A stretch of DNA of 47,051 nt from positions 1 through 47,051 of the IMG/VR virus record IMGVR_UViG_3300032207_000263. One strand, written 5' to 3'. Below are positions 28,442 to 43,265 of the stretch, piece by piece. The notes under the pieces were generated by a model that saw nothing but the letters and a program-made list of their open reading frames with translations, was not told the DNA's origin and did no database searches. Both the position numbers and the translations under genes were made by a program. Each line of letters begins with the position of its first letter. Within the stretch, counting starts at the first letter, position 1. Source of the DNA: a virus.

Positions 28442-30412
28442 TTACCCAAAGTTGTTGGGGTTGTTCAGATACTCGCCCGTCAAATACCTTTCGTCATAAA
28501 ACCTTTGTTGCCCCGGCGTTGCGGTGCCTGCCGCTACCCTATCAAGGATGAACTGTAGGTTTTGATCAAATGTGGGCTTTGCTGACGAATCAAAAACCCT
28601 ATCGTCTGGAGACCCCGGAGTAAAATCCCGGTCATAAAGCCTTTCTCCATTTGGTCCGACTACGGGGTTCTCTTCGATGATGTCACCGCCGCCCATCGGG
28701 TAGGGGTAGGGCTGTATTCTTGGGCCACCCTTCCCGCCACCCATTGGGTACGGCATTGGTCTAGCCATCCCACCTTTGCCGCCACCAAATCTAGGTCGCT
28801 GGTAGCCGCCATAAGGGCCAAATCCTGTCGAGTAGCCGCCCATCAGTCCACGGTTGGGCATGTACTGCGAGGAGTATCCGTAGTTGAACGGTTGCATCGG
28901 CACGGTCATTCCCTGACCGAATCCACCCATGCCGCCGCCTTTACCACCACCGCCGAATCCGCCCATACCACCAAAGCCCATTGGGCTACTCATGCCATAT
29001 GGAACCATGCCGGAATAAAGCTGATTGCCAGTGATGTACTGGCCGGGCATTCTGTAGCCGCCACCAGCCTGATAGGTTCCGCCGCTCTGAGGCATAGCGC
29101 CACCAGTGCCGCCTTTTCCGCCCATTCCGCCCGTTCCGCCTTTTCCGGGGAATCCGGGCATCGTTCCTGCGCCAGTATCAGTGCCTGCTCCAGCCCCGGT
29201 TCCATCTCCAGCCCCGGCTCCAGCGTCTGCCAGCGCCTGATACTGGCTCAAGTCAGAGCCATATGGAACATTTGCAAACCCGCCGTCTATAGCGAATGGG
29301 TTGTTCGTTCTGTCGATGCCAAGTGAGTCCAGATAGGCTTGATAGTCTCTGCTGGTTCCCATGCCCTCTCCACGGCCATACGCCTGACGGACAAGGTTTG
29401 ATCGGAGTTTGTCAACGTCGCCGGTAAATGGAGCGCCTTCTGGGCGAAAGTTGTAAAAGCCTGTCTGACTTGGTGCGCGGCCAAACAGTTCTTGAGTTGC
29501 GGTAAAGAGTGGACCGCCAGCCTGTGAAGCCTCGTAGTAACCGCGATCCAGATCGCCAGCCCCAGAAATCAAGGCTTGTCTGAGATTGTCTGGGTTGATT
29601 CTGCCCTGAGCCAACTGCTCGTTAAAGTAATCAAGCCCAGCCTGTTTGGGCGCTCTGCCGAAAAGTTCTCGGTAATACTGATTAAGCTCGTCGGTATAAT
29701 TTGTCGTATTCGCCACTGCGCCCGTCCCCGCGTTAAAATCATCCACTACTGGGTCAGGTGTGTCCCTGACAGCGTCTGTGTAATAGGGGTCCGAGTCACC
29801 GCTAGCCCCTGCGAAAGATGGAGTTACGTTTACATTGCCTCTGCCAAGCTCATTGATGTCGTCGATTGAGTAGCCTTGGTTATACAGCGACTCAAGACGG
29901 TCAACATAGCCCGTGAACTTGTTAAACTCGCTTTCGCTTCTCCCTGTTTTATTTGCCTCATAAGGGCTAAACGCTCTGTTATCGCCCTCTGCTCGCATTT
30001 TGATGCGATCCCGTAACGCCTGAAGCGCGTGTATATGCGAATAGCCAAACTGGTTGCGTATATCTGCAAAAGACTCTGGGTCTTGGTTCGGGTCTTGGAA
30101 CTGCTTGTACATTCCCGAGTCGTCAAACTGGTAGGCCATCCCAGTCTGCGCTATTTGCTCGTCAGAAAGGCTGTAGTCATACCCCGGACGCGGGGCAAAG
30201 CTCCCCTTCTCTCTTGCCTCTTCGCTGTTGTACATTCTCCTAGCGGCAATGTGGGCTGGAAACTGCTGGTAGTACTCCAAACCGCCCGGATCGGCGCCAC
30301 GACCAAGGATGTCTTGGTAAAGACTCTCGATAATCTCCGCAGAAGCACGGCCTTGGGGCTGATTCTGGTAGATATCGATAATTCTTTCTCTGGCTTCGTC
30401 AGAAACAGCCAT
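28442..30412 (-). CDS. DUF4214-like repeat and Gly-rich virion protein (656 aa)
   Basis: First gene of the late operon. It holds at least two to three copies of a DUF4214-like module: IIESLYQDILGRGADPGGLE (about residue 27), YYRELFGRAPKQAGLDYFNE (about 245) and ATQELFGRAPSQTGFYNF (about 305). From about 395 it becomes Gly/Met/Pro-rich (GGMGGFGGGGKGGGMGGFGQ). The C-terminus returns to an ordered segment (QNLQFILDRVAAGTATPGQQ). DUF4214 occurs in surface proteins of marine bacteria and phages. ATG 30412 has GAGGAG in front. Probably structural; unproven. Confidence 0.6.
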   Translation of the reverse strand: MAVSDEARERIIDIYQNQPQGRASAEIIESLYQDILGRGADPGGLEYYQQFPAHIAARRMYNSEEAREKGSFAPRPGYDYSLSDEQIAQTGMAYQFDDSGMYKQFQDPNQDPESFADIRNQFGYSHIHALQALRDRIKMRAEGDNRAFSPYEANKTGRSESEFNKFTGYVDRLESLYNQGYSIDDINELGRGNVNVTPSFAGASGDSDPYYTDAVRDTPDPVVDDFNAGTGAVANTTNYTDELNQYYRELFGRAPKQAGLDYFNEQLAQGRINPDNLRQALISGAGDLDRGYYEASQAGGPLFTATQELFGRAPSQTGFYNFRPEGAPFTGDVDKLRSNLVRQAYGRGEGMGTSRDYQAYLDSLGIDRTNNPFAIDGGFANVPYGSDLSQYQALADAGAGAGDGTGAGAGTDTGAGTMPGFPGKGGTGGMGGKGGTGGAMPQSGGTYQAGGGYRMPGQYITGNQLYSGMVPYGMSSPMGFGGMGGFGGGGKGGGMGGFGQGMTVPMQPFNYGYSSQYMPNRGLMGGYSTGFGPYGGYQRPRFGGGKGGMARPMPYPMGGGKGGPRIQPYPYPMGGGDIIEENPVVGPNGERLYDRDFTPGSPDDRVFDSSAKPTFDQNLQFILDRVAAGTATPGQQRFYDERYLTGEYLNNPNNFG

Positions 30413-30450
30413 AGAATCTCCTCAATGAACGCTAGACAGGGCAAATCCCC

Positions 30451-30573
30451 CTAGTAATGTACTAGACCTAGGAAGGTTCTAGCTAGAACCACCCTATTAA
30501 ACAAAAACTTAGGAACTTACTAGGCTAGAACAGTCCTAGTTCTAGGAGATTTCTAGGCCTAGAACCTTTCTAG
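30451..30573. repeat. CTAG-N7-CTAG palindrome array 1 (seven elements)
   Basis: Seven 15-bp elements of form CTAG-N7-CTAG start at 30451, 30468, 30483, 30509, 30525, 30542 and 30559; the third and fourth have one changed outer base (CTAT, TTAG). Spacing is 15-17 bp apart from one 26-bp gap. Examples are CTAGGAAGGTTCTAG and its near complement CTAGAACCTTTCTAG. Twelve exact CTAG occur in 123 bp. It ends 38 bases before the ATG at 30412. Looks like a multi-site operator, or a recognition site for replication or packaging. Confidence 0.9.
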
Positions 30574-30855
30574 GTAGAAATACCCCCCGGATTGTACAGA
30601 ATATAGCCCCTTGACAGTAACATGTCTACAGTTAGACGGGGTTTTTGGTCGATTTTTTGGTAATTTTTGGCATTTTGGTCAAATTTTGCAGAAATATTGG
30701 GGGGTATGGGACTCCTAGGGCGATTTCCCATGAAAAATCCCCCGATGAGACAGTGTGACAGTGAGACAAAGTTGAAAATTAGCTCATTTTTTGAGCGGAT
30801 CACTATGTATATAGAAGCGACATGGCCTCGGCTCTAGGGGGGGGTGGGGGTCGCT
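30574..30855. other. Noncoding region between CTAG array and terS
   Basis: Apart from the promoter, this AT-rich stretch has a GAAGCGAC/GTCGCTTC inverted repeat (30814-30821 and 30850-30857) around a G8-T-G5 run, a small hairpin GCTCA/TGAGC near 30781-30795, and direct GAGACA copies near 30745-30770. A 77-codon open frame at 30570-30803 lacks coding character. I see no gene here. Confidence 0.6.
30600..30628 (-). promoter_or_regulatory. Sigma70-like promoter of the late operon
   Basis: The minus strand reads TAGACA (30628-30623), a 17-base spacer, then TATATT (30605-30600). Transcription would start near 30593 and run through the CTAG array, making it part of the 5' leader of the late operon. 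The same TAGACA -35 with 17-base spacing appears at 36251 on the plus strand. Confidence 0.55.
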
Positions 30856-31350
30856 TCAGTGGATGTCCATAGTATCTGGCCGATCTCGAGAAAAGTCGTA
30901 ATCGTCTGCGTCTGACGTGTCATCAGCAGTGGCAGAGTCGAGCATGGCATCGAGCTCAGCGAGCAGGTCAGCCGATGATCGGGCATCGACCTCAGCGTGG
31001 AGCTCGACAAAGGCGCCCGATGCGCGACCCAGCAGTTCCAGAGCGCGGAGCCTGCCGCTGTCCTGAGGGCTGGCAGTGAGGGCGAGGTCACGCAGGTGCT
31101 TCCTGACCATCTCACGGTCTGAGAGTGCAGAGGCAACCATACCGGCCTCCCTCGCCTTGATTAGCTGGTCATACCTTGCCCTTACCTTGCGGTTGGCCGA
31201 CAGCCTGCTGGCCTTCTCGTGGACGGTCTTCGCCTTGGTCTCTGGGCTGACTGAGAACGCTTCGCGGTATGCCTGAGATTGCGATAGGCCGCTGGCCCAC
31301 GCCCGACAGTAGTGGAGTTGGGCTGACGTGAGGGGTTTGTCATCTGACAT
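30856..31350 (-). CDS. terS: Terminase small subunit
   Basis: 164 residues. LTSAQLHYCRAWASGLSQSQ, then AYREAFSVSPETKAKTVHEK and ASRLSANRKVRARYDQLIKA form the helix-turn-helix DNA-binding part of the terminase_2 type. A helical oligomerisation region and an acidic tail (SATADDTSDADDYDFSRDRP) follow. Start ATG 31350 with AGGAG six bases before is preferred to the codon at 31380. Unusually it is separated from terL by the control region, a virion gene and a small basic gene. Confidence 0.8.
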   Translation of the reverse strand: MSDDKPLTSAQLHYCRAWASGLSQSQAYREAFSVSPETKAKTVHEKASRLSANRKVRARYDQLIKAREAGMVASALSDREMVRKHLRDLALTASPQDSGRLRALELLGRASGAFVELHAEVDARSSADLLAELDAMLDSATADDTSDADDYDFSRDRPDTMDIH

Positions 31351-31693
31351 GGTCTGCTCCTGTAAACTTGTTGCCTGCAAGGGGTCTGCCGATCCTAACC
31401 TAGAATTTACTTTAACTACACCCCCTAAGTGGTTCCGGTTCTAACTTCCGATTAAATATCAAAAACGCGCTCTCAGCCACGTTAACATGTTCTGAGTACT
31501 GGGGTATGGGTTTTTCTAACGTTGCTCACAGGGCCATACAGAGCCTCTCAGGGCATGTTCTACTGCAATTAAATGCTCTGAAACGCACTAAAAAGTCGTC
31601 GAAAAATCACGCTTACAGCCCGAACTTAAAGTAGATTCTAGGTGTGCTCGCAGTGCGTCATTGCGTAGGTATATAAAAGGCACCATGACTTCT
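31351..31693. other. Noncoding part of divergent control region
   Basis: Lies between terS (minus) and the early genes (plus). It is AT-rich with isolated CTAG sites (near 31402 and 31637) but no N7 pairs, and a TTAACATGTTCT palindrome near 31484. An 81-codon open frame at 31588-31833 overlaps the promoter and start of the first early gene and does not look coding. No clear promoter for terS is visible. Confidence 0.5.
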
Positions 31694-31709
31694 GTGGTAT
31701 TATTACCAC
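31694..31709. promoter_or_regulatory. Operator-like palindrome GTGGTA-TTAT-TACCAC
   Basis: A perfect 6-base inverted repeat with a 4-base centre, about 42 bp upstream of the -10 of the early promoter. The half-site ends in ATTACC, which recurs twice downstream (31786-31806). This suggests a repressor or activator site for the early promoter. Confidence 0.55.
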
Positions 31710-31728
31710 TATACTTCTTTGTGACATG

Positions 31729-31756
31729 TTGCTGGTAGCACTCAAGTCGGTATAAT
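31729..31756 (+). promoter_or_regulatory. Sigma70-like early promoter
   Basis: TTGCTG (31729-31734), a 16-base spacer, and a perfect TATAAT (31751-31756). Transcription would begin near 31763 and give a leader of about 64 bases before the ATG at 31827. It should drive the plus-strand early operon with the MoxR/VWA cassette. Confidence 0.65.
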
Positions 31757-31785
31757 CCGCTCACGGGCAGAGGATATGCCCTGTA

Positions 31786-31806
31786 AATATTACCGTGAAT
31801 ATTACC
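31786..31806 (+). repeat. Direct repeats AATATTACC, 12 bp apart
   Basis: Two exact 9-base copies at 31786-31794 and 31798-31806, in the leader of the early operon, just before the ribosome-binding site. They share ATTACC with the palindrome at 31694. They may be bound as DNA downstream of the promoter or act in the RNA leader. Confidence 0.6.
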
Positions 31807-31826
31807 AATCCTGTAGGAGGGATCAC

Positions 31827-32126
31827 ATGCCACTAAACACCACTGAAGCTCAGGAAATCGCTGACCTGTTCACCAGCATCACGGTCTGCAACATGATGCT
31901 CGACAAGAGTGAGTCCTGCTCACTCGAATGGTATCTGCACAGGGAGAGGGCGGCTCGTGCCACCATCGAGCTTGCCGACACATACGGCATCGAATTGCCT
32001 TGCTTGGAAGAGCACCGCAAGGACGTTCGCCGGTTCACTCTCAAGGTAGAGCAGATGCTGGAACAGAAGGGGATGAACAAGCGCGAAGACAATCTCATCA
32101 ATGCCGATCTGGAGGTATCGCAGTGA
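31827..32126 (+). CDS. Small early protein (99 aa)
   Basis: First gene of the early operon. Starts MPLNTTEAQEIADLFTSITV at ATG 31827, seven bases after a strong AGGAGG; an in-frame ATG at 31776 lacks this. The protein is helical, with three Cys, and the middle WYLHRERAARATIELADTYG is amphipathic. Its stop overlaps the GTG of the next gene. Not recognised; possibly works with the MoxR/VWA genes that follow. Confidence 0.65.
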   Translation: MPLNTTEAQEIADLFTSITVCNMMLDKSESCSLEWYLHRERAARATIELADTYGIELPCLEEHRKDVRRFTLKVEQMLEQKGMNKREDNLINADLEVSQ

Positions 32127-33082
32127 GCACATTCATCGAGAACCTATCCAACAACATGCTACTGCTACCCGTTTCGATGGGGCGTATCCAGCTTGAGGTG
32201 AAGACCAAAAAGGGCGCCGATGCGATCAAGTCCGCGCTGGGTGTCGCTGAGGGTGTCCGCGCTGGGGGCACCATCGGTGCGCTGGGCGCCATGACTGATC
32301 TGGCCGCTGAGTTGATCAACCGCCCCTACGGTCACGCACGCACCTACACCTACACCCACACGCTTGCCGCCGCTGTTCGTGGGCATCGCATCGTGACCAC
32401 CACCCGCACGCCTGAGCACCTGACCCGCTACGCTGAGTTCAGGCACGCAATGACCAATGGCATCAATGAATTCATGCCGCAGTATGAGGCCTACTACGCT
32501 AGCACCAACGGCGTCGCAGACATGGGCTCCAGTCAGATCACGATCCCGCACCCTGACACCGTTCGCGAGAAGGCCTATATCAACATTGGCGTGCCCCAGT
32601 TGATCCGGCCTGCTGACCTCGATGGGATGAACCTCCCCGCCGGTCTGGCCGCTGACATTGCCGCACGCACTGACGCCCACATCATGCAACAGGCTGAGGC
32701 CGCGAAGACCGCCGCCGTCGAGGAGTTGGCGAAGGCTGTCGATAACATCGAGAAGCAGTTGACCTCAGGCAAGCGGCTCCACGACTCGCTGATCTCAAAC
32801 GCGCAGAATGCCTCCCGCAACCTGCGTGAGTTCACCGACTCATTCGACAATGATCCCCGCCTGATCGAGGCCTGCGATATCGTCGATGACCGCATTGCGT
32901 CATCTACTCTCGAACAGGTTAAGAACAGTGAGACGTTGCGCTCTCAGGCAGTCCGCGCCGCGTCCACTGCAAGTAAGTCCCTCAAGAAGGTTGCATCGGC
33001 TCCCGCTATATCGGCGCCTGTACCGGCTGAGGTTGGCACCATCATAACCGGCGATTCACTACTCGCTGACCTAATCGACTAA
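32123..33082 (+). CDS. DUF3150-like protein, partner of MoxR/VWA genes
   Basis: 319 residues from GTG 32123 (GGAGG seven bases before; GTGA overlap with the previous stop). N-terminal part LLLPVSMGRIQLEVKTKKGA with a probable helical rest and a central coiled-coil part (AVEELAKAVDNIEKQLTSGK). The C-terminus is Ala/Pro-rich. In other phages a DUF3150 protein is found before a MoxR ATPase and VWA protein, and this gene has the same place, so I assign it by context and general look, not by a firm motif. The Ala-rich helices suggest an adaptor or substrate-recognition part. Confidence 0.55.
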   Translation: MSTFIENLSNNMLLLPVSMGRIQLEVKTKKGADAIKSALGVAEGVRAGGTIGALGAMTDLAAELINRPYGHARTYTYTHTLAAAVRGHRIVTTTRTPEHLTRYAEFRHAMTNGINEFMPQYEAYYASTNGVADMGSSQITIPHPDTVREKAYINIGVPQLIRPADLDGMNLPAGLAADIAARTDAHIMQQAEAAKTAAVEELAKAVDNIEKQLTSGKRLHDSLISNAQNASRNLREFTDSFDNDPRLIEACDIVDDRIASSTLEQVKNSETLRSQAVRAASTASKSLKKVASAPAISAPVPAEVGTIITGDSLLADLID

Positions 33083-33106
33083 TCATCCTGTAGGAGGGAT
33101 ATCACT

Positions 33107-34252
33107 ATGGCAGATACAGTAATTTCAGCAACGATGGCGGACGTGGATAAGATGATCCCCACTATGCTCGCATCCCCCCAAGGCTTCCAGCCTCTGGGCC
33201 TGATCGGCGCCCCCGCCATGGGTAAAACCATGTACTTCCAGACTCGTTTCCGCGAGCACATGGCGAACCACTATGGCGTGCAGGTGGACGATATCGGCAT
33301 CGTGATCGAGAAGATCGGGCAGGCCGAAGATGCCGCCGCGGTTAACGGGCTCACCCTGCCCAGCAAGCTGGCTGACGGCTCAGTCGCCACCATCAAGTCG
33401 AAGCCCTCGATACTGGTACGCATCGAGGCGACTGGCAAGGAGTACGGCGTCCTGTTGCTCGACGAGGCGGCTCAGGCTGGCACCAATGTTGTGGGCTCGC
33501 TGGGCGACACCTTCAACCGTGCAGAGCATAAGGTGGGCGATTGGGATCTTCCTGAGGGCTGGGTAGTGGTCTTCACCGGCAACCGTGTCGAAGATAAGTC
33601 GGGCTCCAAGCGGTTCCCGTTCCACCTGATTGCAGGCCGCGGCCTTCTCGTTAACTTGATACAGGATACCGCAGGCTGGGTCCGCTGGGCTGGACCTGCC
33701 GGTATCAATCCGCTCTTTGTCGGATTCATCGAGTCCGGTATCAACAATGTCGGTTTCGCTGACGCGGTGCCTGAAAAATACGGCCCCTACCTGACGCCCC
33801 GCTCAGGTGTTGCCGCCGCCGCTCACCTCGATGCCTTCATGGCCTCAGACGAGTTCGATGGCACTGAGATCCCCGCCCACATCATCACCCTGATGGCGAT
33901 GAATATCGGGCAGACTGCGGCCTCTTCTCTGAATGAGTACATCAAGACCGCCGACAGCGTGCCGATGGGTCACGAGATCCTTGCCGACCCCACGGGCGCC
34001 ATGGTGCCAGACGATACTGGCTTCCAGCAGTTGGCCGCGAACCGCGCCATGAATGCCATCGTGAGTGAGGCTGACGCTGATGCCGCCCTCACCTACATCG
34101 TGCGGTTGCGTCCTGACCTGCAGATATCGCTGGGCACCAAGCTGATCCGCCGTTCTTCACGAGAGGGCTGGCCTATGATCTCGCCGATTGCCAACGCCTT
34201 CATGAATAAGTTCTCCGAATTCCTTCCCCTTGCCGCAGAGGAGCGCCAATAA
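33107..34252 (+). CDS. MoxR-type AAA+ ATPase
   Basis: 381 residues. Walker A GAPAMGKT (34-41), Walker B VLLLDE (115-120), a sensor-1 Asn in VVVFTGNR (153-160) and following SKRFPFHLIAGRGLLVNL carrying candidate Arg-finger residues. These fit the MoxR/RavA/CoxD/NorQ/CobS group, which work as hexamers with a VWA partner to remodel or insert metal cofactors in target proteins. The partner is the next gene, overlapped as TAATG. The ribosome-binding leader CCTGTAGGAGGGATATCACT also occurs before other early genes. Confidence 0.8.
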   Translation: MADTVISATMADVDKMIPTMLASPQGFQPLGLIGAPAMGKTMYFQTRFREHMANHYGVQVDDIGIVIEKIGQAEDAAAVNGLTLPSKLADGSVATIKSKPSILVRIEATGKEYGVLLLDEAAQAGTNVVGSLGDTFNRAEHKVGDWDLPEGWVVVFTGNRVEDKSGSKRFPFHLIAGRGLLVNLIQDTAGWVRWAGPAGINPLFVGFIESGINNVGFADAVPEKYGPYLTPRSGVAAAAHLDAFMASDEFDGTEIPAHIITLMAMNIGQTAASSLNEYIKTADSVPMGHEILADPTGAMVPDDTGFQQLAANRAMNAIVSEADADAALTYIVRLRPDLQISLGTKLIRRSSREGWPMISPIANAFMNKFSEFLPLAAEERQ

Positions 34253-35670
34253 TGAAAGCCAAAAAGCTATACGCCGCAACCGACGATCTGACCAACAGCC
34301 GTAAGCATGTCGCGGCCATGATCATCCTGAACGCGAAGGCGCCGGTTCACTACACCACACTGGTAGCGACTGAGACCATCTGGACCTCAGCCATCCCCAC
34401 CGCCGCCACTGACGGCGTGTATGTTTACGTCAACCCTGAGTTCTACCGCGGGTTGGCGACTGACGGCCAGCGTGCGTTCCTGCTGGGTCACGAGGTGTCG
34501 CACATCATCCTGCGTCACCCCCAGCGCAGTCTGGCCTACCAGAAGCGCGGGTTCTTCCGCCATGGCATGAAGTTCGTGCACAGCATCTACAACAGTGCCG
34601 CCGACTATGTGATCAATGATGACCTGATCGCCATGGGTCTGGAGCCCATCCCGCAGGGACTGTACTCCGACACCTACAAGCGTGATGACGTTGTCGATAC
34701 CGTGTACGCGGACATCTACAAGGATCAGCCAGAAGAGCCTGAGCACGGCGAGCCTGAGGGTGAGGAGGGAGGTTTCCCGTCTCCTGAGTCTGGCAACTCT
34801 CAGCCCAATGGGGACGGTGAGGAAACCGAAGGTGAGCCCAATGGTGCAGGTACTCAGAGCGGCGAGTCTACTGACAACATGTCAGGAGAAGGTGACCTGC
34901 CCGCACCCGCAGGCCACGACTACCATCTCACCCCCGAGTATGAGGGCGACGCCGACGAGCAGGCTGATGCCGCCGCTCAGGACGAGCACGATATCAGTGA
35001 GGCGATTGACCGCGGTCTGGATCAAATGGACGCTGAGGGTAAGGACACCTCCAAGGTCTCCGGCAACGTCAGGGACGGCGGCAACCGCTACCGCTCAGGC
35101 AAGCAGTCCAATGTCGCTTGGAACGCGGAGCTTGCTGACCGTGTCACCCGTGTCGGCAAAGGCGAGCGCACCAGCTTCTCCCGCATCAAGGTTCGGCAGT
35201 ATGCCACTATCGGCGTGATCAGCCCTGAGACGCTGGGCGAGTTTACCCGCCTGACCGTGATCAGTGATATCTCATCGTCTGTCAGGGACGAGCCCTTCAA
35301 GGCTTACCTGAACGAGTTGGCCGCAATCCAAGACGCAGTCAATCCCGTCGAGGGCGTGACCATCCTGTGGACTAACCACCATGTTGCGCGGGTTGATGAA
35401 GCCTACTCAAGCGATGAGCTTCTCAACCTCGACATGCCTTGGAAGGGCGGCGGCACTGAGATGTCTGCCGGTTTGGACTGGCTGGATCAGAACGGCGTCG
35501 AGTCTGACCTGATCATGGTGTTCACCGATGGCGAGTTGTGGGGCGATGACTGGACCCGTCTGGCCGCTGAGGATGACCTGCTGGTCGTGCTGGACCGCGA
35601 GCCAGACCTCTACACCAAGCGTGAGCTTGACGGCCACAACATCGACTACATCGTCGCGGAGGCCGCATGA
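34252..35670 (+). CDS. VWA-domain protein with N-terminal metallopeptidase-like part
   Basis: 472 residues. The N-terminal domain has a zincin motif GHEVSHIILRHP (HEVSH at 80-84) with a possible third ligand in SAADYVINDD (about 116-124), as in the DUF2201 metallopeptidase-like group. A long acidic Glu/Gly/Pro/Ser linker (about 160-250) follows. The C-terminal VWA domain has a complete MIDAS: DISSS (339-343), Thr402 in GGGTEMSAG, and Asp426 in VFTDGE. This architecture pairs with MoxR ATPases. Whether it cleaves protein is unknown. Confidence 0.8.
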   Translation: MKAKKLYAATDDLTNSRKHVAAMIILNAKAPVHYTTLVATETIWTSAIPTAATDGVYVYVNPEFYRGLATDGQRAFLLGHEVSHIILRHPQRSLAYQKRGFFRHGMKFVHSIYNSAADYVINDDLIAMGLEPIPQGLYSDTYKRDDVVDTVYADIYKDQPEEPEHGEPEGEEGGFPSPESGNSQPNGDGEETEGEPNGAGTQSGESTDNMSGEGDLPAPAGHDYHLTPEYEGDADEQADAAAQDEHDISEAIDRGLDQMDAEGKDTSKVSGNVRDGGNRYRSGKQSNVAWNAELADRVTRVGKGERTSFSRIKVRQYATIGVISPETLGEFTRLTVISDISSSVRDEPFKAYLNELAAIQDAVNPVEGVTILWTNHHVARVDEAYSSDELLNLDMPWKGGGTEMSAGLDWLDQNGVESDLIMVFTDGELWGDDWTRLAAEDDLLVVLDREPDLYTKRELDGHNIDYIVAEAA

Positions 35671-36038
35671 AGTACAAGGTCACAGTGATCGAGTCATATG
35701 AATTGGAGGTCGAGGCCGACTCAGCAGAGGACGCTAAGAACTTCATGATGGTCGGACAGCCGTGGGTCAGCGGCAGGCACTCAGAGGTCTGCGGCGTCCC
35801 ACGCCAGACCGGCTACCGCAAGACGGCATACGCCAGCATCCTGCCCCCAGAGAAACCAACCGACGATGGGGGCTACCTCGACGTGCTGAATGAGATGGCA
35901 CGCTACGAAGAATCGGACATGCGTCATGCTCCTAACTTGTTAAAGGACTGGTATGGGATCAGCAAGGCCGAAGCGATGCGCCTGTTCAACATGTGGATCA
36001 GGTCGCTGTCAGATGAAGAACAACTGAATCTTTTTTAA
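35667..36038 (+). CDS. Small early protein (123 aa), DpnD/PcfM-like N-terminus
   Basis: MKYKVTVIESYELEVEADSA followed by EDAKNFMM resembles the short beta-alpha DpnD/PcfM-like fold. The C-terminal half (LKDWYGISKAEAMRLFNMWI) looks like a separate helical unit. ATGA overlap with the VWA gene. Function unknown; may be regulatory. Confidence 0.55.
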   Translation: MKYKVTVIESYELEVEADSAEDAKNFMMVGQPWVSGRHSEVCGVPRQTGYRKTAYASILPPEKPTDDGGYLDVLNEMARYEESDMRHAPNLLKDWYGISKAEAMRLFNMWIRSLSDEEQLNLF

Positions 36039-36048
36039 GGAGAAACAA

Positions 36049-36243
36049 ATGAATACTTATACCGTGTGGGTCACAGAGACCAGTGAATGGGAGGTCGAGG
36101 TCGAGGCTCCCGATCAGGAAGAAGCCATGCGCTTAGCTGAAGAAGAGGTAAACAGCGTGCACGTCGAGGGCAAACTGCTGGGCATTGAGATAGAAGCCGT
36201 CAGCCTGCGGCTCGACAAGGAACTAATTGTCCATAGTAGTTAA
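36049..36243 (+). CDS. DpnD/PcfM-like small protein (64 aa)
   Basis: MNTYTVWVTETSEWEVEVEA, DQEEAMRLAEEEVNS and a final strand match the single-domain DpnD/PcfM pattern. AAGGAG lies seven bases before ATG 36049. Related to the N-terminus of the previous gene, so the two may be paralogues. No activity is known. Confidence 0.6.
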   Translation: MNTYTVWVTETSEWEVEVEAPDQEEAMRLAEEEVNSVHVEGKLLGIEIEAVSLRLDKELIVHSS

Positions 36244-36250
36244 AGAGGTT

Positions 36251-36279
36251 TAGACATAGGCGTCATTGCCTGTTATCAT
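36251..36279 (+). promoter_or_regulatory. Promoter TAGACA-N17-TATCAT, extended -10
   Basis: TAGACA at 36251-36256, a 17-base spacer, TG-N before the -10 hexamer, and TATCAT at 36274-36279. It would give a leader of about 20 bases before the ribosome-binding site of the gene at 36308. The -35 is the same as in the late-operon promoter at 30623-30628. Confidence 0.6.
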
Positions 36280-36307
36280 CAAATCGTATCTGTAGGAGGA
36301 TATCATT

Positions 36308-36577
36308 ATGTTTTGTAGCGAATGCTTGAGATCAAACGGACATCATCCCAACTGCCCCAACGCAGAGGACATGCCTGAGCCAACCTTCACCGTCTGGCAG
36401 GTTGGTAAGGTGCCCGACACTGTGCTCAGGTCTGAGAGCGCCATGCGAAGCGCCGCCAGCAAGCTGGGCTTTGACGCCAACGTGGTCATCTCAGAAGGCG
36501 AGGCAGACATCGTAAACGAGGTCGGGATCGTGATGGGCGGTTGCTACGTCAACGAAGAGGGGCACGGTTATGTTTAG
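36308..36577 (+). CDS. Small zinc-ribbon-like protein (89 aa)
   Basis: The N-terminus has FCSECLRSNGHHPNCPN, with Cys-x2-Cys and His/His-x3-Cys that could bind zinc. The rest alternates strands and helices (TFTVWQVGKVPDTVLRSESA). ATG 36308 follows TGTAGGAGG. The last bases overlap the next start. Unknown function. Confidence 0.6.
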   Translation: MFCSECLRSNGHHPNCPNAEDMPEPTFTVWQVGKVPDTVLRSESAMRSAASKLGFDANVVISEGEADIVNEVGIVMGGCYVNEEGHGYV

Positions 36578-36800
36578 GCTCCCGAAAAAAGACCCGCTCA
36601 ACACTGACCGGCTGGTGCGCTCTGCGATCTCAGGATCTGCCGGTGAACCATACTGCTGTCTTATTCTTGACTCGTTAGGAGTAGAAGATTACAGCCACTG
36701 GTCGCTCGACGATATCCAAAAATTCTGGGATGACGCCAGCCAGTCTGATCTGACGGTTGCTGAGTTTATCCTGCTGAAGAAGCAGGAGGTGGCCGCATGA
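36570..36800 (+). CDS. Small early protein (76 aa)
   Basis: MFRLPKKDPLNTDRLVRSAI and VEDYSHWSLDDIQKFWDDAS; helical with one CC pair in EPYCCLILDSL. Overlaps the gene before by 8 bases and the one after by 4 (ATGA). Not recognised. Confidence 0.6.
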   Translation: MFRLPKKDPLNTDRLVRSAISGSAGEPYCCLILDSLGVEDYSHWSLDDIQKFWDDASQSDLTVAEFILLKKQEVAA

Positions 36801-37804
36801 AACGCCCCGACTCTGATTTGATTCGTCGGCTTATTAAGCACAATGCGCTGAGCACCAAAACAAATTTTGCTTATCCGACATCCTCTGAATCTTTCGCCAG
36901 TGCCAACAGCAGGAACGACATCATCCATAAGGCTATGTCGCTCGACCAAGTTTTAGAGTTGCCATATTTTCACATGGCTTACAAGGACATGGACGATTTT
37001 GAGTTTGCGGCTGATGATTATTTGCTTGATAAGCCCGACGATGCGATGAGAACAGAGCTTGTATATGACGAGTTTGTATTGTCAGCCAGAACGGAGGTAC
37101 GGCTAGAACTCCACGACTCCTCTATTCAGACGGTGCCTGCCAATTACTGGGGCGTTGTCAAGGCGGTTCATGACGGTGCGAACTTTTCCGATTCGGTTTT
37201 ATTGTTTATCGATTACCCAGAGGCTCCAAGACAGATTGTAATCTGGGAGGGCTGGGCAAAATCAAACTTCCCATCTCACGGGAAGACAGACATGGTGCTG
37301 GCGCCTGAGTACGAAAAATATATGAGAACGTGGTATCAAGAGCTTGTTGACAGCGCCCATGCTGTCGAGGGCGGATTCGACAAGTATATGAGCGGCATTA
37401 CCAATCAGGCAGGTAACTGGTATTGGTTTGTTCGTAGGCTGATGGCTTACATCAAGTACGGTGACAAGCATGTCGTCGAGGTGACTCCTACTCCTGACAA
37501 GTTAGCAAAAGCAAAGCGAAACCCAGTCAACCGCAAACGCCCGTGGGCCAAGTCAAGTGGGCCTCATGTCTTGCTGTTGGATCGGATGCCGACAGAGAAA
37601 ACGGAGTCCACAGGTACGCACGCTAGTCCAAAGCCACACAAGCGGCGAGGCTACTGGAAAACACTGCGAGACCCACGGTTTCGTCACCACCCGCAGTATC
37701 AAAAACAAATCTTTGTGAAGCCCTGTTTTGTGGGCGAAAAGCAAGTCACATACGAAGGCAACATTTACAGGCTCGTTGAGCCATTAGAAGGGGTCGCGGC
37801 ATGA
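36797..37804 (+). CDS. Conserved phage protein (335 aa), unknown function
   Basis: The N-terminal two-thirds are mixed alpha/beta with many aromatic residues (NWYWFVRRLMAYIKYG). The C-terminal part has a basic motif PKPHKRRGYWKTLRDPRFRH followed by KQIFVKPCFVGEKQ, a pattern I have seen in several phage families where R-G-H/Y-W/L-R precedes a V-x-P-C strand. It may bind nucleic acid. Overlaps both neighbours by 4 bases. No enzymatic motif is clear. Confidence 0.6.
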   Translation: MKRPDSDLIRRLIKHNALSTKTNFAYPTSSESFASANSRNDIIHKAMSLDQVLELPYFHMAYKDMDDFEFAADDYLLDKPDDAMRTELVYDEFVLSARTEVRLELHDSSIQTVPANYWGVVKAVHDGANFSDSVLLFIDYPEAPRQIVIWEGWAKSNFPSHGKTDMVLAPEYEKYMRTWYQELVDSAHAVEGGFDKYMSGITNQAGNWYWFVRRLMAYIKYGDKHVVEVTPTPDKLAKAKRNPVNRKRPWAKSSGPHVLLLDRMPTEKTESTGTHASPKPHKRRGYWKTLRDPRFRHHPQYQKQIFVKPCFVGEKQVTYEGNIYRLVEPLEGVAA

Positions 37805-37977
37805 GCATGGTAGAAGAGATAATTGAGGAGCTTCAAGGGTCGATCACTTGGATTTCCAATCACAAGGGAGCAGGCTGGACCCACGAGGGTCGATGTAACG
37901 AGGAAGACATGGCTCAGTTGCATGAGCTTGCATGGCAATTAGTCAATCTAACGAGACCAGAGGAGGAGATCGCATGA
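37801..37977 (+). CDS. Small early protein (58 aa)
   Basis: Starts MSMVEEIIEELQGSITWISN and ends LVNLTRPEEEIA. ATGA overlaps with both the gene before and the gene after give good evidence that it is translated. Acidic and helical, with Trp residues; no family recognised. Confidence 0.65.
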   Translation: MSMVEEIIEELQGSITWISNHKGAGWTHEGRCNEEDMAQLHELAWQLVNLTRPEEEIA

Positions 37978-38279
37978 AGGTGATGCAGACGGTAATTAGG
38001 GGCCAGCAGACTGGCCCGTTGATATTCTTTGTCGAAGACTTTATGGACGTATATCGTGTGGTTTACGCGCCTTTTGATCGTTGGCTTTTGGCAGATAGAG
38101 TTACCGACAACCTGCCAATGTCATGCGTGACATCAACCGATATTAGCCCCAGAGCAGAGCATGGAACGCTGTGCTCCCATGAGGAGTTCCGTAAGCGTTG
38201 CATCAAGTGGCTACGCAAGAAGGAGCGCAATGATCACCCTCCGGTTGCGGTGCTGGCAACGGGGGATGACAATGGATAA
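37974..38279 (+). CDS. Small early protein (101 aa)
   Basis: ATG 37974 (after GAGGAGGAG) gives MKVMQTVIRGQQTGPLIFFV; an upstream in-frame ATG at 37932 is inside the previous gene. The middle DVYRVVYAPFDRWLLADRVT looks like a beta domain; the C-terminus has a basic helix (EEFRKRCIKWLRKKERNDHP). Unknown. Confidence 0.6.
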   Translation: MKVMQTVIRGQQTGPLIFFVEDFMDVYRVVYAPFDRWLLADRVTDNLPMSCVTSTDISPRAEHGTLCSHEEFRKRCIKWLRKKERNDHPPVAVLATGDDNG

Positions 38280-38442
38280 TGCAATTTCTATTTGGGCGGG
38301 GGTATTAACTTTCCTGCTCATTTTGGGAGTGGTTGGACGCGAAGATTACGAAGATCAGATCGCCGCAGAGCGCCACTACTGTGAAATGGTTGAGGACAAG
38401 GTTTGGCCTGCCTACAACCCAAACATCAACTGTGAGGAGTAA
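38266..38442 (+). CDS. Small membrane protein (58 aa)
   Basis: A short N-terminus MTMDNA, one membrane segment ISIWAGVLTFLLILGVVG, then a charged C-terminus with two Cys (HYCEMVEDKVWPAYNPNINC). ATG 38266 or 38272 may be used; both lie in the end of the previous gene. The Cys pair would face the periplasm if the N-terminus is inside. Function unknown. Confidence 0.55.
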   Translation: MTMDNAISIWAGVLTFLLILGVVGREDYEDQIAAERHYCEMVEDKVWPAYNPNINCEE

Positions 38443-38446
38443 TCAC

Positions 38447-38752
38447 ATGCAAAGGCGAAGATGGACAAACGAAGAAGATGACGTGATCGAGGACGGCATC
38501 GCAGAAGGGTTGACGTACAGACAGATTGCGGAAAAGCTACCTGACCGGACAGAAACCGCCGTGTCGAATCGAACCCATGTTATGCGGACGAAGTATTCGC
38601 GCTACAACATAAGGCGAAACCAGACAGAGCCGCCTGAAATCAAGGCGGTGATCAATGACGGCAGGATAGGTATCATGTTCTGGGCCGCGTGCGTGGCGGC
38701 AATCGCCTCGTCTCTTACCCTGATGATTTGCATTGGGGCAATGTACTCTTGA
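38447..38752 (+). CDS. Myb/SANT-like DNA-binding protein with C-terminal membrane helix
   Basis: 101 residues from ATG 38447 (GAGGAG before). RRWTNEEDDVIEDGIAEGLT with YRQIAEKLPDRTETAVSNR is a Myb/SANT-type three-helix DNA-binding domain with the conserved W and hydrophobic core. The C-terminus has a clear membrane helix (FWAACVAAIASSLTLMICIG). A DNA-binding head with a membrane tail could tether phage DNA to the envelope or be a membrane-controlled regulator; inference. Confidence 0.65.
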   Translation: MQRRRWTNEEDDVIEDGIAEGLTYRQIAEKLPDRTETAVSNRTHVMRTKYSRYNIRRNQTEPPEIKAVINDGRIGIMFWAACVAAIASSLTLMICIGAMYS

Positions 38753-38763
38753 GGAATGATGCG

Positions 38764-38928
38764 GTGATAGCCGTTCAGGCGGCAACGCAGATGGCTGAGA
38801 TATGGGGTGAGGATGTTGCGATTATGTCCAACCTCCGCATCAAGCCTTTGCGCGAAGCGGTGGGGACCGTGCTAGAGATAGTGCGGTGCCCTGCCTCTTT
38901 GAAAAAACAGGATCGTGACGTAGACTGA
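38764..38928 (+). CDS. Small conserved protein (about 54 aa)
   Basis: From GTG 38764 (GAGG nine bases before) it reads VIAVQAATQMAEIWGEDVAI and ends near IVRCPASLKKQDRDVD. TTG 38749, overlapping the previous stop, is another possible start. The pattern W-G-x-D-V-A-I-M followed by VLEIVRCP is one I associate with small phage proteins. No function. Last gene of this plus-strand block. Confidence 0.5.
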   Translation: MIAVQAATQMAEIWGEDVAIMSNLRIKPLREAVGTVLEIVRCPASLKKQDRDVD

Positions 38929-39011
38929 AGTTGGGGGACACTCCTACACGGCGTGCGGCGGCGTCGATAGAGTTTACGCATTCCCCCGATCCTTAGTGAT
39001 TTAGCGTACTC

Positions 39012-39491
39012 TCAACCGCCGCTCTTCAAGTGCCTCACCGGATTCTTACCGCCAGCCATGCGTCTCTCAGCAATCCAGCCCAGCCCCTTTTTCAGGGTGA
39101 CAAGTCTTTCTTTTGACGCCGACACGTCCCAGCCATGGATTACCACCTCCTCGACAAGATACTTGGCATAGTCGCCATATCGCCTGCCAACAAGGTTCAA
39201 AGTCCTCCCATACCGCATTAGAGCGTCAGACGCCATCGAGTCTGGGTTTGCATCTCCTGATCCCGCCTCGTACCTGAGGGGCTTGGAAAAGATGCCTGCC
39301 TTCACCGCCTGACTCAGAACATACTCCCCAGCCTGATGCTCACCCAGCGTCAGCAAGCCGTCCATGAGATACCTGTCGATCAGGTTCTGATCCATGACCT
39401 TGGCGCGAGGCATTGTGCCGCCCTCCACCATGACGGCGTGGCGTTTGTGGATTTCTTTCGTGCCTAAGTCTGTGTGTAACTTGTCAGTCAT
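39012..39491 (-). CDS. Conserved phage protein (159 aa), helical
   Basis: HKRHAVMVEGGTMPRAKVMD, then LIDRYLMDGLLTLGEHQAGE and ASDALMRYGRTLNLVGRRYG. The C-terminal part ends RMAGGKNPVRHLKSGG, a motif I associate with a phage/rhodobacterial DUF6456-like group. It is likely DNA-related because it follows the primase-helicase gene. AAGGATTCTT precedes ATG 39491. Converges on the plus-strand block. Confidence 0.5.
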   Translation of the reverse strand: MTDKLHTDLGTKEIHKRHAVMVEGGTMPRAKVMDQNLIDRYLMDGLLTLGEHQAGEYVLSQAVKAGIFSKPLRYEAGSGDANPDSMASDALMRYGRTLNLVGRRYGDYAKYLVEEVVIHGWDVSASKERLVTLKKGLGWIAERRMAGGKNPVRHLKSGG

Positions 39492-39560
39492 AAGAATCCT
39501 TCCCGGGCGCTGAAATTGTCCCCGGATAATAAAAACTCTACTGAGAACTTGTTAACAGTA

Positions 39561-41309
39561 CTAGAACTCATCGAAGTCATCCCATGCTCTTCCCCGCAAT
39601 TTAGACAGGCCAGTCGCTGGTGGATCTGGTTCAGGTGTCCTCTCGGTGTATGTACCGTTAGACATGTTATAGCTTAACTGCGCGACACCCTGCGAGCCTA
39701 CCCATTTGAATCTAGATTTCCAGCAATGAATCTCGACGCATTCATCTGTCCTGTGAACCGTCACACCCAGATCAGCCTTGGCAAACCAAGCCGCTGACCC
39801 TGAGATATTCATGCCTTTTGGCACAGCGTAGGTGCCATCCTCACGGGGGTACATCTTCTGGGGGTGGGCGACAAACCAGACGTGGATGCCGTGGGCCTTG
39901 GCAAAACTGGTGATGCGGGTCAACATCTGGGAAATGTTGCTGTGCTCCTCCTGACTGCTCGACTCAATGTAGTTGTACGGGTCGATGATCAGACCCCGCA
40001 CACCCATACGCATAACCGCTTGCTTGGCCCTGTCGATGATCGAGTCAATCGTGCTGAGACCGCCGTCCTTGCTTTCAAGGAACACAAAGTGGTCGTTGAT
40101 GAACTCGACAGCCTCGCCTAGCTCATCCTCGCTCATCCGCTGGCTCAGTCCGGTGTAAAACGGCTTGCCTGACACCTTCTCAGCGAGCTTGGCAATGTGC
40201 ATGTGGGGCGGGTTTTCAAACGAACAAACCGCAAACTTCCACGACTCACGCTGAGCGAGATTGATCATAATCTGGTCGATGAACTCAGACTTGCCGCTTG
40301 ATGGCATGCCGGTGACCACCGAAAGCTGGCCCTCAGCAACGGTAAATAGCTCGTCAATAGAATTAAATCCAGTTGAGGCGCCACGCCCATGTCCGTTCTG
40401 GTAGATGTCTTTAACCGCGTCCAAATACTCGCTGGCACCATACACGCCAGACAAAGGTATCGGCTCGGGATTGTCGAAGATGCGTCGTGTTTCCTCTGCC
40501 CCTAACTTGTCAACAGCATCGTTCGCGTCCTTGGCGCCCTCGGGAAACTTAACCCGCCAGCACTTTGCTCTGCCCACTCGGCGAGCAATCTCCTCTGCCA
40601 GTGCCTCGCCAGCCTCATCGCTGTCTGTCGCCAGAACGATCTTTTTGCACCGATCCAATCGCTCGCGCTCATTCCACACAAACGCAAACTTTTTGTCCTC
40701 TTCAGGGTCGATACGGTTGTGCGATACCTTTATCGGTGCCCCATTTGGGCAGGAAACGGCCTTAATTCCGATGCTGGCTAGGGCAATGACATCACACTCC
40801 CCCTCAACTATCGTTAATTCTTCGGCCTCTTCCTCTATGTTTTCTATGCCGTAAAAGGATCTTGGTGCGCCATCACAGGTGAATCCCTTGCCTTCCACAG
40901 ATCGCCACTTGATTGCTGTTGGCGACTCCCGTGTTCCGTACACAAAGCCAACCGCCTGCTTTTCCTCACCGCCAAACCACTTGGTGCCAGTGGTCATTAG
41001 AGGTAAGTCATTGATGTCGTTGATTTTGACTCCTCGAGAGGAGAAGAAGTTCTTAACAAGTTCTACGTTATCGTTCAGTTGGGTGGGTATCTTCACTACT
41101 TTGTCTTGTTTCATATGAGCCTCGTAAAATTTTTCACGCCGGTAAGAACCAGACAAGCCGCAATGGTGGCAGTGGTAAAGGGTATGGTCTGGTTTTACGG
41201 TGATTGAAAGTGTTTTTATGCTTTTCTTTTTGCGTGCATCTGAGCAGTCTGGGCAACGCTCTCTGGCGTCTTGATTGTGACTCAGGATGAAGTCTTTCAA
41301 GCTGTTCAT
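39561..41309 (-). CDS. DNA primase-helicase (T7 gp4-like)
   Basis: 582 residues in the order zinc ribbon, TOPRIM, helicase. The zinc ribbon has Cys19-x2-Cys22 and Cys47-x2-Cys50. TOPRIM has VEGECD (168-173) and DSDEAG (229-234). The DnaB-type helicase has Walker A GMPSSGKS (334-341), Walker B IIDPYN (441-446) and HVWFVAHPQKMYP with the H motif. It would unwind the fork and make primers. AGGAGG lies 11 bases before ATG 41309. A palindromic CTAG array lies directly upstream. Confidence 0.88.
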   Translation of the reverse strand: MNSLKDFILSHNQDARERCPDCSDARKKKSIKTLSITVKPDHTLYHCHHCGLSGSYRREKFYEAHMKQDKVVKIPTQLNDNVELVKNFFSSRGVKINDINDLPLMTTGTKWFGGEEKQAVGFVYGTRESPTAIKWRSVEGKGFTCDGAPRSFYGIENIEEEAEELTIVEGECDVIALASIGIKAVSCPNGAPIKVSHNRIDPEEDKKFAFVWNERERLDRCKKIVLATDSDEAGEALAEEIARRVGRAKCWRVKFPEGAKDANDAVDKLGAEETRRIFDNPEPIPLSGVYGASEYLDAVKDIYQNGHGRGASTGFNSIDELFTVAEGQLSVVTGMPSSGKSEFIDQIMINLAQRESWKFAVCSFENPPHMHIAKLAEKVSGKPFYTGLSQRMSEDELGEAVEFINDHFVFLESKDGGLSTIDSIIDRAKQAVMRMGVRGLIIDPYNYIESSSQEEHSNISQMLTRITSFAKAHGIHVWFVAHPQKMYPREDGTYAVPKGMNISGSAAWFAKADLGVTVHRTDECVEIHCWKSRFKWVGSQGVAQLSYNMSNGTYTERTPEPDPPATGLSKLRGRAWDDFDEF

Positions 41310-41347
41310 CTGTTTGACTACCTCCTACTTGTATGCTATTGGTAGCC

Positions 41348-41415
41348 CTAGGACTGTACTAGACTAGAATATTCCTATTTAAAATAGGTATATATCTAGA
41401 CTAGAACCTTCCTAG
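41348..41415. repeat. CTAG-N7-CTAG array 2 with dyad layout
   Basis: Elements CTAGGACTGTACTAG (41348), CTAGAATATTCCTAT (41364), ATAGGTATATATCTAG (41384, one base longer) and CTAGAACCTTCCTAG (41401) are mirrored around 41381-41382. The centre is the near-palindrome CCTATTTAAAATAGG, and the outer ends are CCCTAGG and CCTAGGG. The left end is 38 bases before ATG 41309, the same distance as array 1 to its gene. Element types are shared with array 1. Candidate operator or replication origin. Confidence 0.9.
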
Positions 41416-41436
41416 GGTTCTTACTCTTTGAGCTTT

Positions 41437-41460
41437 AGCCCCCAATAGGGGGCTTTTTTT
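41437..41460 (+). terminator. Rho-independent terminator (plus strand)
   Basis: AGCCCCC-AATA-GGGGGCT followed by seven T on the plus strand. On the minus strand the hairpin directly follows the stop codon of the gene at 41459-41710 but has no T-run. There is no plus-strand gene just upstream, so it may end a short transcript through array 2, or block antisense transcription from entering rusA. Confidence 0.75.
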
Positions 41461-41710
41461 ATGCACACTGGAACAACTCTTCCATCACCATCTGAGCAAC
41501 AACCCTCTGTTGCGTCCGGCTCAGGCAAAGCATTTCGTCCAGTGCGTCTTGCAAACCGACAGGGTAACCCGCCAACCGGCAGTGATAGACAAAAGCGTTT
41601 GATTTCAAATATTTAATGGCGGCATCACGGTCAACTTGCTGGTTACAAACCAAGTCCTTGATCGCCTGAAGGATGACCTTGCTATAAACAATTTTATAGG
41701 TGTCTGACAC
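41459..41710 (-). CDS. Small protein (83 aa) after RusA gene
   Basis: MSDTYKIVYSKVILQAIKDL, then RDAAIKYLKSNAFVYHCRLA and a C-terminal helix (CLSRTQQRVVAQMVMEELFQ). Helical with three Cys. Overlaps the resolvase gene by 17 bases. Probably a replication or recombination accessory by position; not recognised. Confidence 0.6.
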   Translation of the reverse strand: MSDTYKIVYSKVILQAIKDLVCNQQVDRDAAIKYLKSNAFVYHCRLAGYPVGLQDALDEMLCLSRTQQRVVAQMVMEELFQCA

Positions 41711-42050
41711 TGATCTCTGCGCGTGGATTTTCCTTGTCCACTCCCCCCCAATAAATATGCTTTTCTTTCACCTGCCTGTCGTTTTTATACACGAAGCCCT
41801 GCATCACGTCTAGAATCAGTGACTCATCCAAGTCGGGGCGTCTGGATTTGTAGTAGATCGTGATTGTCACCGACAGGTCGCCATCGAGAAGCGGGTCCAT
41901 CTTTTTGCACTGCTGATGGAACATCTTGACGTATCCCAACGCCTTCTTTGACTTGATAACCATTGGGGCGCCAGCCCTGCTCTTGACAATCCTACGGCTA
42001 TTCGCTTTGCTACACGGCTCTCCTAAAATTACCATGCTTACCTTTGACAT
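41694..42050 (-). CDS. RusA-like Holliday junction resolvase
   Basis: 118 residues. MVILGEPCSKANSRRIVKSR, the strand pair DGDLSVTITIYYKSRRPDLD and the core ESLILDVMQGFVYKNDRQVK with following EISVRHL match RusA, in which conserved Asp residues (here DLDE, LDV, KND) bind the metal. It would resolve branched DNA before packaging. GGAG lies seven bases before ATG 42050. Divergent from the recombination block. Confidence 0.8.
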   Translation of the reverse strand: MSKVSMVILGEPCSKANSRRIVKSRAGAPMVIKSKKALGYVKMFHQQCKKMDPLLDGDLSVTITIYYKSRRPDLDESLILDVMQGFVYKNDRQVKEKHIYWGGVDKENPRAEISVRHL

Positions 42051-42101
42051 ATGTTGACTCCTACGTTAGCATCCGTTCTCCACATTGAGGAGTGTATCAC
42101 G

Positions 42102-42359
42102 ATGAGCAAAATGGGACGTTATGTCTTTGATGTACAGATGGCTGAGGAGGCCGAGTTTTATGGACATTCAGATAGAAAAGCATGTGCCAATCCCCAAGCG
42201 GACGAAGATACCGGACCTGCCACTGGCAGAGATGGAGATCGGCGATTCTTTTGTGGCACCCATCGATGCGGACGAGCAGACGGAGGTCAGAGCACTCCGA
42301 CAGCGGATTTCCCGATGGCAACGGGATCGACACCCCGTGAAGTTTTCCGTCGTTCGTGA
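42102..42359 (+). CDS. Possible overlapping early ORF (85 codons)
   Basis: ATG 42102 follows GAGGAG by nine bases. The first 24 residues, MSKMGRYVFDVQMAEEAEFY, look like a real short phage protein start; the rest, out of frame with the gene at 42160, is low-quality (Gly/Arg/Thr/Pro). Either a short coupled leader peptide whose frame drifted, an overprinted gene, or a truncated gene. Translation start is likely; the full product is doubtful. Confidence 0.35.
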   Translation: MSKMGRYVFDVQMAEEAEFYGHSDRKACANPQADEDTGPATGRDGDRRFFCGTHRCGRADGGQSTPTADFPMATGSTPREVFRRS

Positions 42360-42393
42360 CGGCGAGCAGATGAGGGTATTCCGAGTCGCGTGA
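42160..42393 (+). CDS. Small conserved phage protein (77 aa)
   Basis: MDIQIEKHVPIPKRTKIPDL then LAEMEIGDSFVAPIDADEQT, RQRISRWQRDRHPVKFSVVR and DGEQMRVFRVA. GGAGG lies nine bases before ATG 42160. I have seen this M-E-x-G-D-S-F ... R-V-F/W-R pattern in many phages near replication genes; it is likely a small DNA-related beta protein. Its stop overlaps the next start as GTGA. Confidence 0.65.
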   Translation: MDIQIEKHVPIPKRTKIPDLPLAEMEIGDSFVAPIDADEQTEVRALRQRISRWQRDRHPVKFSVVRDGEQMRVFRVA

Positions 42394-43265
42394 AAATCAC
42401 TAACCACACAAACTTACCTGAGCCTGTATTCAAGGCGCTGACGCACAGTGACTATTCAAGGGGTCACAGCAACCGCTCAGTCACCCAACTGATAGACAGC
42501 CCCCGTGTACGCATTCTCCGCAAGGAGCATGACGACGAAATCACGGAGGATGTGTCTGACATGTTGTGGAGTGTGCTGGGCACGTCAGTACACACCATGT
42601 TTGAACGGCATCAACCTGAGGGGCATATCGTTGAAGAGCGACTATTCGCTGAGGTTGACGGGTGGAGTATCAGTGGGGCGATTGATTTACAGCGTTCGGA
42701 AGCTGACGGCACGATGACCATTATGGATTACAAATGCACCTCAGTGTGGTCTGTGATTCATGGCAAGGTCGAGTGGCACAAGCAACTCAATTTCTACGCA
42801 TGGCTTGCTGAGCAGAAGGATGGGGTCGAGGTGGCTGGCTTACAGATTGTTGCTGTCCTGCGTGACTGGCAAAGGTCAAAAGCCAAGATCGAAACCAACT
42901 ACCCGCTGGCGCCAATCGTTATCGTGGATGTCCCGCTCTGGTCGCCGGAGGAAAGGGACCGCTATGTCCGCAAAAGGGTGAAAATCCATCAGGAAGCCGA
43001 GTACGAACGGCTAACAGGCGGTCACATACCCCACTGTAGTGACGAAGAGCGTTGGAAGCGGGAAGACACCTTTGCTGTCAAGAAAAGGGGCAACAAGCGT
43101 GCCCTCCGTGTTTTCGACAATATGGCTGAGGCAGAGGCGTTTGCTGAAGAGGCGTCAGAGCGCGAGATAGAAGAGCGTAGAGGTAAGTGCGTCCGGTGCG
43201 AGGACAACTGGTGCCGTGTGGCGCAATGGTGCGAACAATACGAGAACGAGGCGTGGTGTGATTGA
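42390..43265 (+). CDS. PD-(D/E)XK nuclease with C-terminal Cys cluster
   Basis: 291 residues, GTG start at 42390. PD-(D/E)XK signature: His68 in VLGTSVHTMFE, Asp99 in SGAIDLQRSE, Asp113-Tyr-Lys115 in TIMDYKCTS, and Gln132 in HKQLNFYAWL. The last 25 residues hold five Cys (CVRCEDNWC, QWC, AWC) that could hold an iron-sulphur cluster or zinc, as in Cas4/AddB-type exonucleases. Together with the Sak protein it may form a two-part recombinase (exonuclease plus annealing protein). Confidence 0.75.
   Translation: MKITNHTNLPEPVFKALTHSDYSRGHSNRSVTQLIDSPRVRILRKEHDDEITEDVSDMLWSVLGTSVHTMFERHQPEGHIVEERLFAEVDGWSISGAIDLQRSEADGTMTIMDYKCTSVWSVIHGKVEWHKQLNFYAWLAEQKDGVEVAGLQIVAVLRDWQRSKAKIETNYPLAPIVIVDVPLWSPEERDRYVRKRVKIHQEAEYERLTGGHIPHCSDEERWKREDTFAVKKRGNKRALRVFDNMAEAEAFAEEASEREIEERRGKCVRCEDNWCRVAQWCEQYENEAWCD

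Follow-up and report, generated by a model that had tools for sequence, protein, structure and literature searches.

Does the same short palindrome, repeated and mirrored before two unrelated genes of one phage, mark shared control, a replication origin or a structured RNA? The DNA analysed here is a virus record of 47,051 bases (the window), in which one array lies before a primase-helicase gene and another at the start of the late operon. The original prediction had described CTAG-N7-CTAG elements at both places, spaced identically from the downstream genes, and proposed either a single regulator for the replication and late genes or an origin.

A 15-bp palindrome repeated in two arrays

The window contains seven copies of the motif CTAG-N7-CTAG where 0.37 would be expected, five in the late-operon array (array 1) and two in the primase array (array 2). 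None of 100 dinucleotide-preserving shuffles reached seven matches (mean 0.37), and the arrays that had been predicted are therefore real. Thus palindromic sites are repeated well beyond chance, as in operator arrays. A consensus was built from 35 distinct 17-mers, the exact sites of the window together with those of twelve relative sequences. It shows that the N7 spacer is constrained rather than free. The element is an odd 15-bp palindrome, CTAG-D-A-M-N-K-T-H-CTAG (15-mer form CTAGGACTGTCCTAG), with A and T nearly fixed at positions 6 and 10 and other positions variable. Scanning the window with the corresponding weight matrix returned nine good sites, every one of them inside the two arrays; weaker matches outside, at 44114 and 45218, are within the range of shuffled sequence. 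Two further array members, at 30483 and 41385, scored under the threshold and were placed by spacing.

Array 2 lies upstream of the primase-helicase gene (39561–41309, minus strand; phrog_239, E 4.6e-83). Its four mirrored elements were confirmed by direct reading, the outer two being exact and the inner two imperfect. The outer sites, CTAGGACTGTACTAG (41348–41362) and CTAGAACCTTCCTAG (41401–41415), were also recovered by the pattern and by the weight matrix. The inner sites are CTAGAATATTCCTAT (41364–41378), with a weight-matrix score of 13.9 of 22.3, and TAGGTATATATCTAG (41385–41399), which was assigned from its position. Between the two halves lies the palindromic A+T-rich core CCTATTTAAAATAGG (41374–41388). 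Both this core and the CCCTAGG/CCTAGGG outer ends read as originally described, and CTAGAACCTTCCTAG is indeed the exact reverse complement of the array 1 element at 30468.

Array 1 comprises seven sites between 30451 and 30573, five exact and two imperfect, the latter (30483 and 30509) having been missed by the exact pattern. It precedes a 656-aa gene with a DUF4214 domain (28442–30412, minus strand), the first gene after the array in the late operon. Two exact sites, 30451–30465 and 30468–30482, are nearest to this gene. They are followed by the weak site CTAGAACCACCCTAT (30483–30497), at whose position G029 and G030 have a scored site. Beyond the A+T-rich core TAAACAAAAAC (30498–30508), read directly, lie the site TTAGGAACTTACTAG (30509–30523), detected by the weight-matrix scan, and three exact sites (30525–30539, 30542–30556 and 30559–30573), the last of which is nearest to the late promoter. 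All five exact sites were found by both the pattern and the weight matrix.

Conservation of the arrays and their joint replacement in a sister phage

Relatives of the primase-helicase were collected at 75 loci, and 69 were tested for an array in the leader; L030, L066, L072, L074, L078 and L079 had no usable leader or start. The array is present at all 26 tested loci with a primase identity of at least 73% and at 0 of the 43 others, where in many distant cases the primase match begins at residue 16–19, so that part of the 150 bases tested is coding. Array 2 has four sites in the type of the window and five in the L010 type. Among the 47 of the 75 loci that were inspected for it, relatives have an A+T-rich core at the corresponding place in array 2. 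Both arrays are present in each of the seven records that contain the two loci (the window, G003, G004, G007, G008, G015 and G031), with array 1 reduced to 2–3 clear sites in G007, G008 and G015. The array 1 spacing of 17-15-26-16-17-17 is the same base for base in the window and G029, is mirrored in G004 and G003, and differs by no more than 1 base in G030 and L105 (central step 25). It also recurs in the sibling contig L117/G031, with one site under the threshold.

The distance between array and gene is less regular. In the window both arrays end 38 bases from the ATG (30412 and 41309), as had been noted. Across the 26 loci, the last strong array 2 site is 38, 39, 40, 43 or 44 bases from the first aligned primase codon, and array 1 is about 37–40 bases from its gene (four relatives, counted by eye). 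Since the distance ranges from 37 to 44 bases in relatives, the coincidence in the window is approximate and is no evidence for shared control.

The sister phage G019 (primase identity 70%) lacks a CTAG array. Instead a different palindrome, CGTATATATACG, occurs four times within 2 mismatches in 24.5 kb, twice downstream of the late promoter (2430 and 2498), twice in the primase leader (13076 and 13126) and nowhere else. In 30 shuffles of G019 it occurred 0.83 times on average and at most three times. The motif has thus been replaced at both array loci together; of all the evidence, this joint change argues most strongly for one binder acting in trans. The proposal that one regulator serves the replication and late genes has lost its spacing argument, but it is supported by the same element at both loci and by the same different element at both loci of G019.

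Promoters beside the arrays and the predicted antisense RNA

Upstream of array 1, a promoter-like element, TGTCAAGGGGCTATATTCTGTACAATC (30590–30616, minus strand), was aligned across the array 1 loci and G019. It has the form TGTCAAGGGG-N-TATATTCTGTACAATC and is conserved in relatives, including G019; its TACAAT is 17 bases from the start of array 1. Pattern matches in G015 (minus), G029 (plus) and L112 were disregarded as chance. Just upstream of this promoter lies an inverted repeat, GTCTACAGTTAGAC (30624–30637), which is GTCTWACTGTAGAC in most array 1 relatives and could be an activator site.

At array 2 the predicted promoter reads antisense to the primase. It consists of TTGACT, 17 bases, and TATTGG preceded by TG-N (41314–41342, plus strand), with a start near 41348; the first base of array 2 is the predicted start of the antisense transcript. 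Every one of 24 leaders matches the pattern TTGNCY-N14-TGNTAW. They come from the window, G031, G033 and 21 loci, a set that was gathered with the pattern itself, though none failed it, and that leaves aside L013, L015, L017, L020, L022, L027 and the other distant loci. Among 17 distinct leaders, TTG.C, TG.TA and two spacer T's are invariant. The window has one match against 0.30 expected, and a quarter of shuffles have at least one; the weight of the promoter therefore rests on its conservation. This arrangement accounts for the conservation seen between ribosome-binding site and ATG. A sense primase promoter with its -35 in the last site was rejected as less consistent than the antisense promoter. 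An intrinsic terminator follows just past the array (41437–41460, plus strand) and is also found in relatives; the terminator search placed it at 41437–41454, which would end the RNA near 41460. In L006–L008 the terminator script halted at an earlier T run. From promoter and terminator together, a short transcript of about 113 nt is predicted to run antisense to the primase leader (41348–41460, plus strand). Array 2 was correctly placed upstream of the primase, but its better-conserved relation is to the start of this predicted transcript. At the level of sequence, sites adjoin promoters at both arrays, and the leader of a replication gene has an antisense promoter and a terminator opposite it.

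On balance, the arrays are probably operators of one putative phage-encoded dimeric regulator at the start of two transcripts. The half-site of such a protein would be CTAG-D-A-M. The 15-bp palindromes follow one another every 15–17 bp, in an order that is conserved, to either side of an A+T-rich core. Each array starts where a conserved promoter is predicted to initiate or just beyond, the promoter being that of the late operon for array 1 and that antisense to the primase leader for array 2. The protein would fill the sites cooperatively and, once bound, would block early elongation or unload RNA polymerase at both promoters. Late transcription would thereby be timed directly, and primase synthesis via the short antisense RNA. 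The counterpart of this protein in G019, with another specificity, would act likewise on the CGTATATATACG sites. Operators downstream of the start site are unusual for an activator, and the sign of control is therefore an inference.

A fuller form of the proposal is a timing switch of lytic phages. One regulator would act on mirrored arrays at the first transcribed bases of two promoters, the antisense RNA would limit the primase-helicase, replication and late expression would be coupled, and the DNA specificity would change at both loci together between sister phages. We put it forward tentatively, as unlikely to hold in all its parts. If the operator reading is right, an uncultured phage group couples its replication and late genes via one set of sites, and the natural swap of specificity would allow proteins to be matched to sites and the regulator to be traced in this way. 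The system would also offer a clean way to ask whether lytic phages limit their replication proteins by antisense RNA.

Two reports on Cluster A mycobacteriophages (PMC9283540, PMC6550527) describe stoperators, many copies of a short site at which a phage immunity repressor halts transcription, with immune specificities that evolve among relatives. Here, too, a phage genome carries one short site many times over. However, stoperators are asymmetric and spread genome-wide, whereas these are palindromes packed in two ordered arrays. Lambda-type operators and the iterons of lambda O offer another comparison, being tandem palindromic sites of 15–20 bp in cooperative arrays near promoters or an A+T-rich origin. 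The likeness lies in tandem palindromes beside promoters or an A+T-rich stretch; unlike the lambda sites, those of array 1 number seven, and a fixed spacing mirrored around a core recurs at two loci.

By analogy with lambda O, an alternative is a replication origin, or more than one, at which a phage initiator would bind the sites as iterons, the A+T-rich core would unwind and the promoter would supply primer RNA or activation. Tandem palindromic sites and an A+T-rich stretch do lie beside the primase-helicase gene, as iterons would, and the promoter points into array 2. We nevertheless regard an origin as unlikely, because a second array of the same sites is found 10 kb off at the late promoter and no initiator was recognised. 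GC skew tracks gene orientation with no independent break, and is therefore uninformative on an origin.

More doubtful still is the view that array 2 is mainly an antisense RNA gene, whose hairpin of about 113 nt would pair with the primase mRNA leader and limit primase synthesis. The precedent is CopA/CopT of plasmid R1, where a short antisense RNA that has a terminator lies across from the leader of a replication gene, and the likeness extends to the predicted short RNA and terminator found here. The invariant promoter columns and the terminator beyond the array speak for it, as does the fold. Array 2 as RNA forms one long hairpin in the window (z -5.7) and in every one of 10 relatives, where z lies between -4.2 and -7.2, and G019 keeps the hairpin with a different sequence. 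Moreover, arms pair better with their own partner than after swapping (p 0.001 without G019 and 0.0002 with it), a test confounded by array length and in which the window and G031 arms ran into the terminator.

The scrambling control speaks against such a gene. When the same sites were placed in random order and orientation, the fraction folding at least as well as the native array was 0.07–0.94 for nine array 2 types and 0.33–0.87 for four array 1 types. Native arrays fell in the best 5% of scrambled ones in 0 of 9 and 0 of 4 cases, respectively. The hairpin thus follows from the repeated palindromes, and RNA folding has lost ground as the reason for the symmetry of the arrays. Pairs changed on both sides numbered 4 of 21 in an alignment of seven mixed types and 0 of 33 in an alignment of eight five-site types, and a search of window positions 30000–42500 against Rfam 15 gave no match at the gathering score. 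An RNA gene also leaves array 1 unexplained. The present case differs from CopA/CopT in that its hairpin consists of protein-type sites found again at an unrelated promoter, with pairing beyond the sites unsupported by the scrambling control. We conclude that the unit of selection is the element itself, as a putative double-stranded protein site; a structured antisense RNA at array 2 is possible.

Candidate binders and the phages that carry the arrays

The putative operators call for a cognate DNA-binding protein. Among the genes common to the array phages there is no evident repressor, and of four candidates examined none was assigned as the binder. The gene after the primase encodes a 159-aa protein that had been presumed to resemble DUF6456/GafY. 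The DUF6456 assignment was not supported by the Pfam profile, which matched 0 of 13 orthologues at E<=1 and 0 of 5 records at E<=10, and Foldseek returned nothing below E 1.5. An 83-aa protein gave no match. Both proteins hardly differ in G019.

The third candidate, a Myb-like protein (38447–38752, plus strand; phrog_323, E 6.4e-9; c-Myb by sequence, E 5.6e-5), occurs in the array loci with long enough flanks. It combines a Myb/SANT-type DNA-binding part with a hydrophobic, membrane-like tail, and L005 has two copies. Its DNA-binding helices change fast among phages with the same sites. It was set aside as a candidate binder, since the window and G031 have nearly the same arrays but strongly different versions of its DNA-binding part. 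The fourth is a DUF7303 protein (42160–42393, plus strand; Pfam PF23978 in 5 of 14 members, best E 3.8e-4). Its identity falls to 38% in G019, but that of the ssDNA-annealing protein likewise falls as low as 39%. The model of the DUF7303 protein is beta-alpha-beta-beta (pLDDT 87.6); a fold search with it gave no informative match (best Z 4.9), and a literature search found no paper on DUF7303.

That no phage regulator was found among these candidates, and that both G019 loci change together, would also fit a host transcription factor through which the phage senses the state of its host, with a host factor of other specificity for G019, but this is very unlikely, since in a collection of 84,980 species tandem site pairs occur in just one contig, itself a sibling phage.

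Tandem site pairs were found only in this phage group, in 14 viral contig stretches and that one contig of the species-genome collection. The contig, PBMQ01000020.1 (61 kb; L117, L120–L123 and G031:C20), sits in the bin 'Euryarchaeota archaeon SP209'. Its primase is 97% identical to that of the window and it aligns over most of the window; it is therefore a sibling phage, probably binned by mistake, or else a rare clue to the host. Siblings have about 8–11 kb extra between window ends 1 and 47051, with long genes of 957 and 2786 aa in G004 and of 1988 aa in G031, and the window record looks incomplete at its ends.

A megablast search of window positions 30300–41800 against the phage collection gave no match, and a narrow literature search found no paper on such an array. 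The terminase of the window (26679–28187, minus strand) is closest to those of Pelagibacter phage HTVC027P, DSL-LC04 and 023Pt_psg01 (54–60%). No array was seen in the part of each of these records that was examined, and their annotated primase, helicase and DNA polymerase differ from the single primase-helicase of the window; the window and these phages are mosaic in their modules. Finally, the leaders of three distant relatives (L036, L061 and L068) carry A+T-rich repeats before the primase match, with CTAG about 10 bases apart, which are possibly another type of array.
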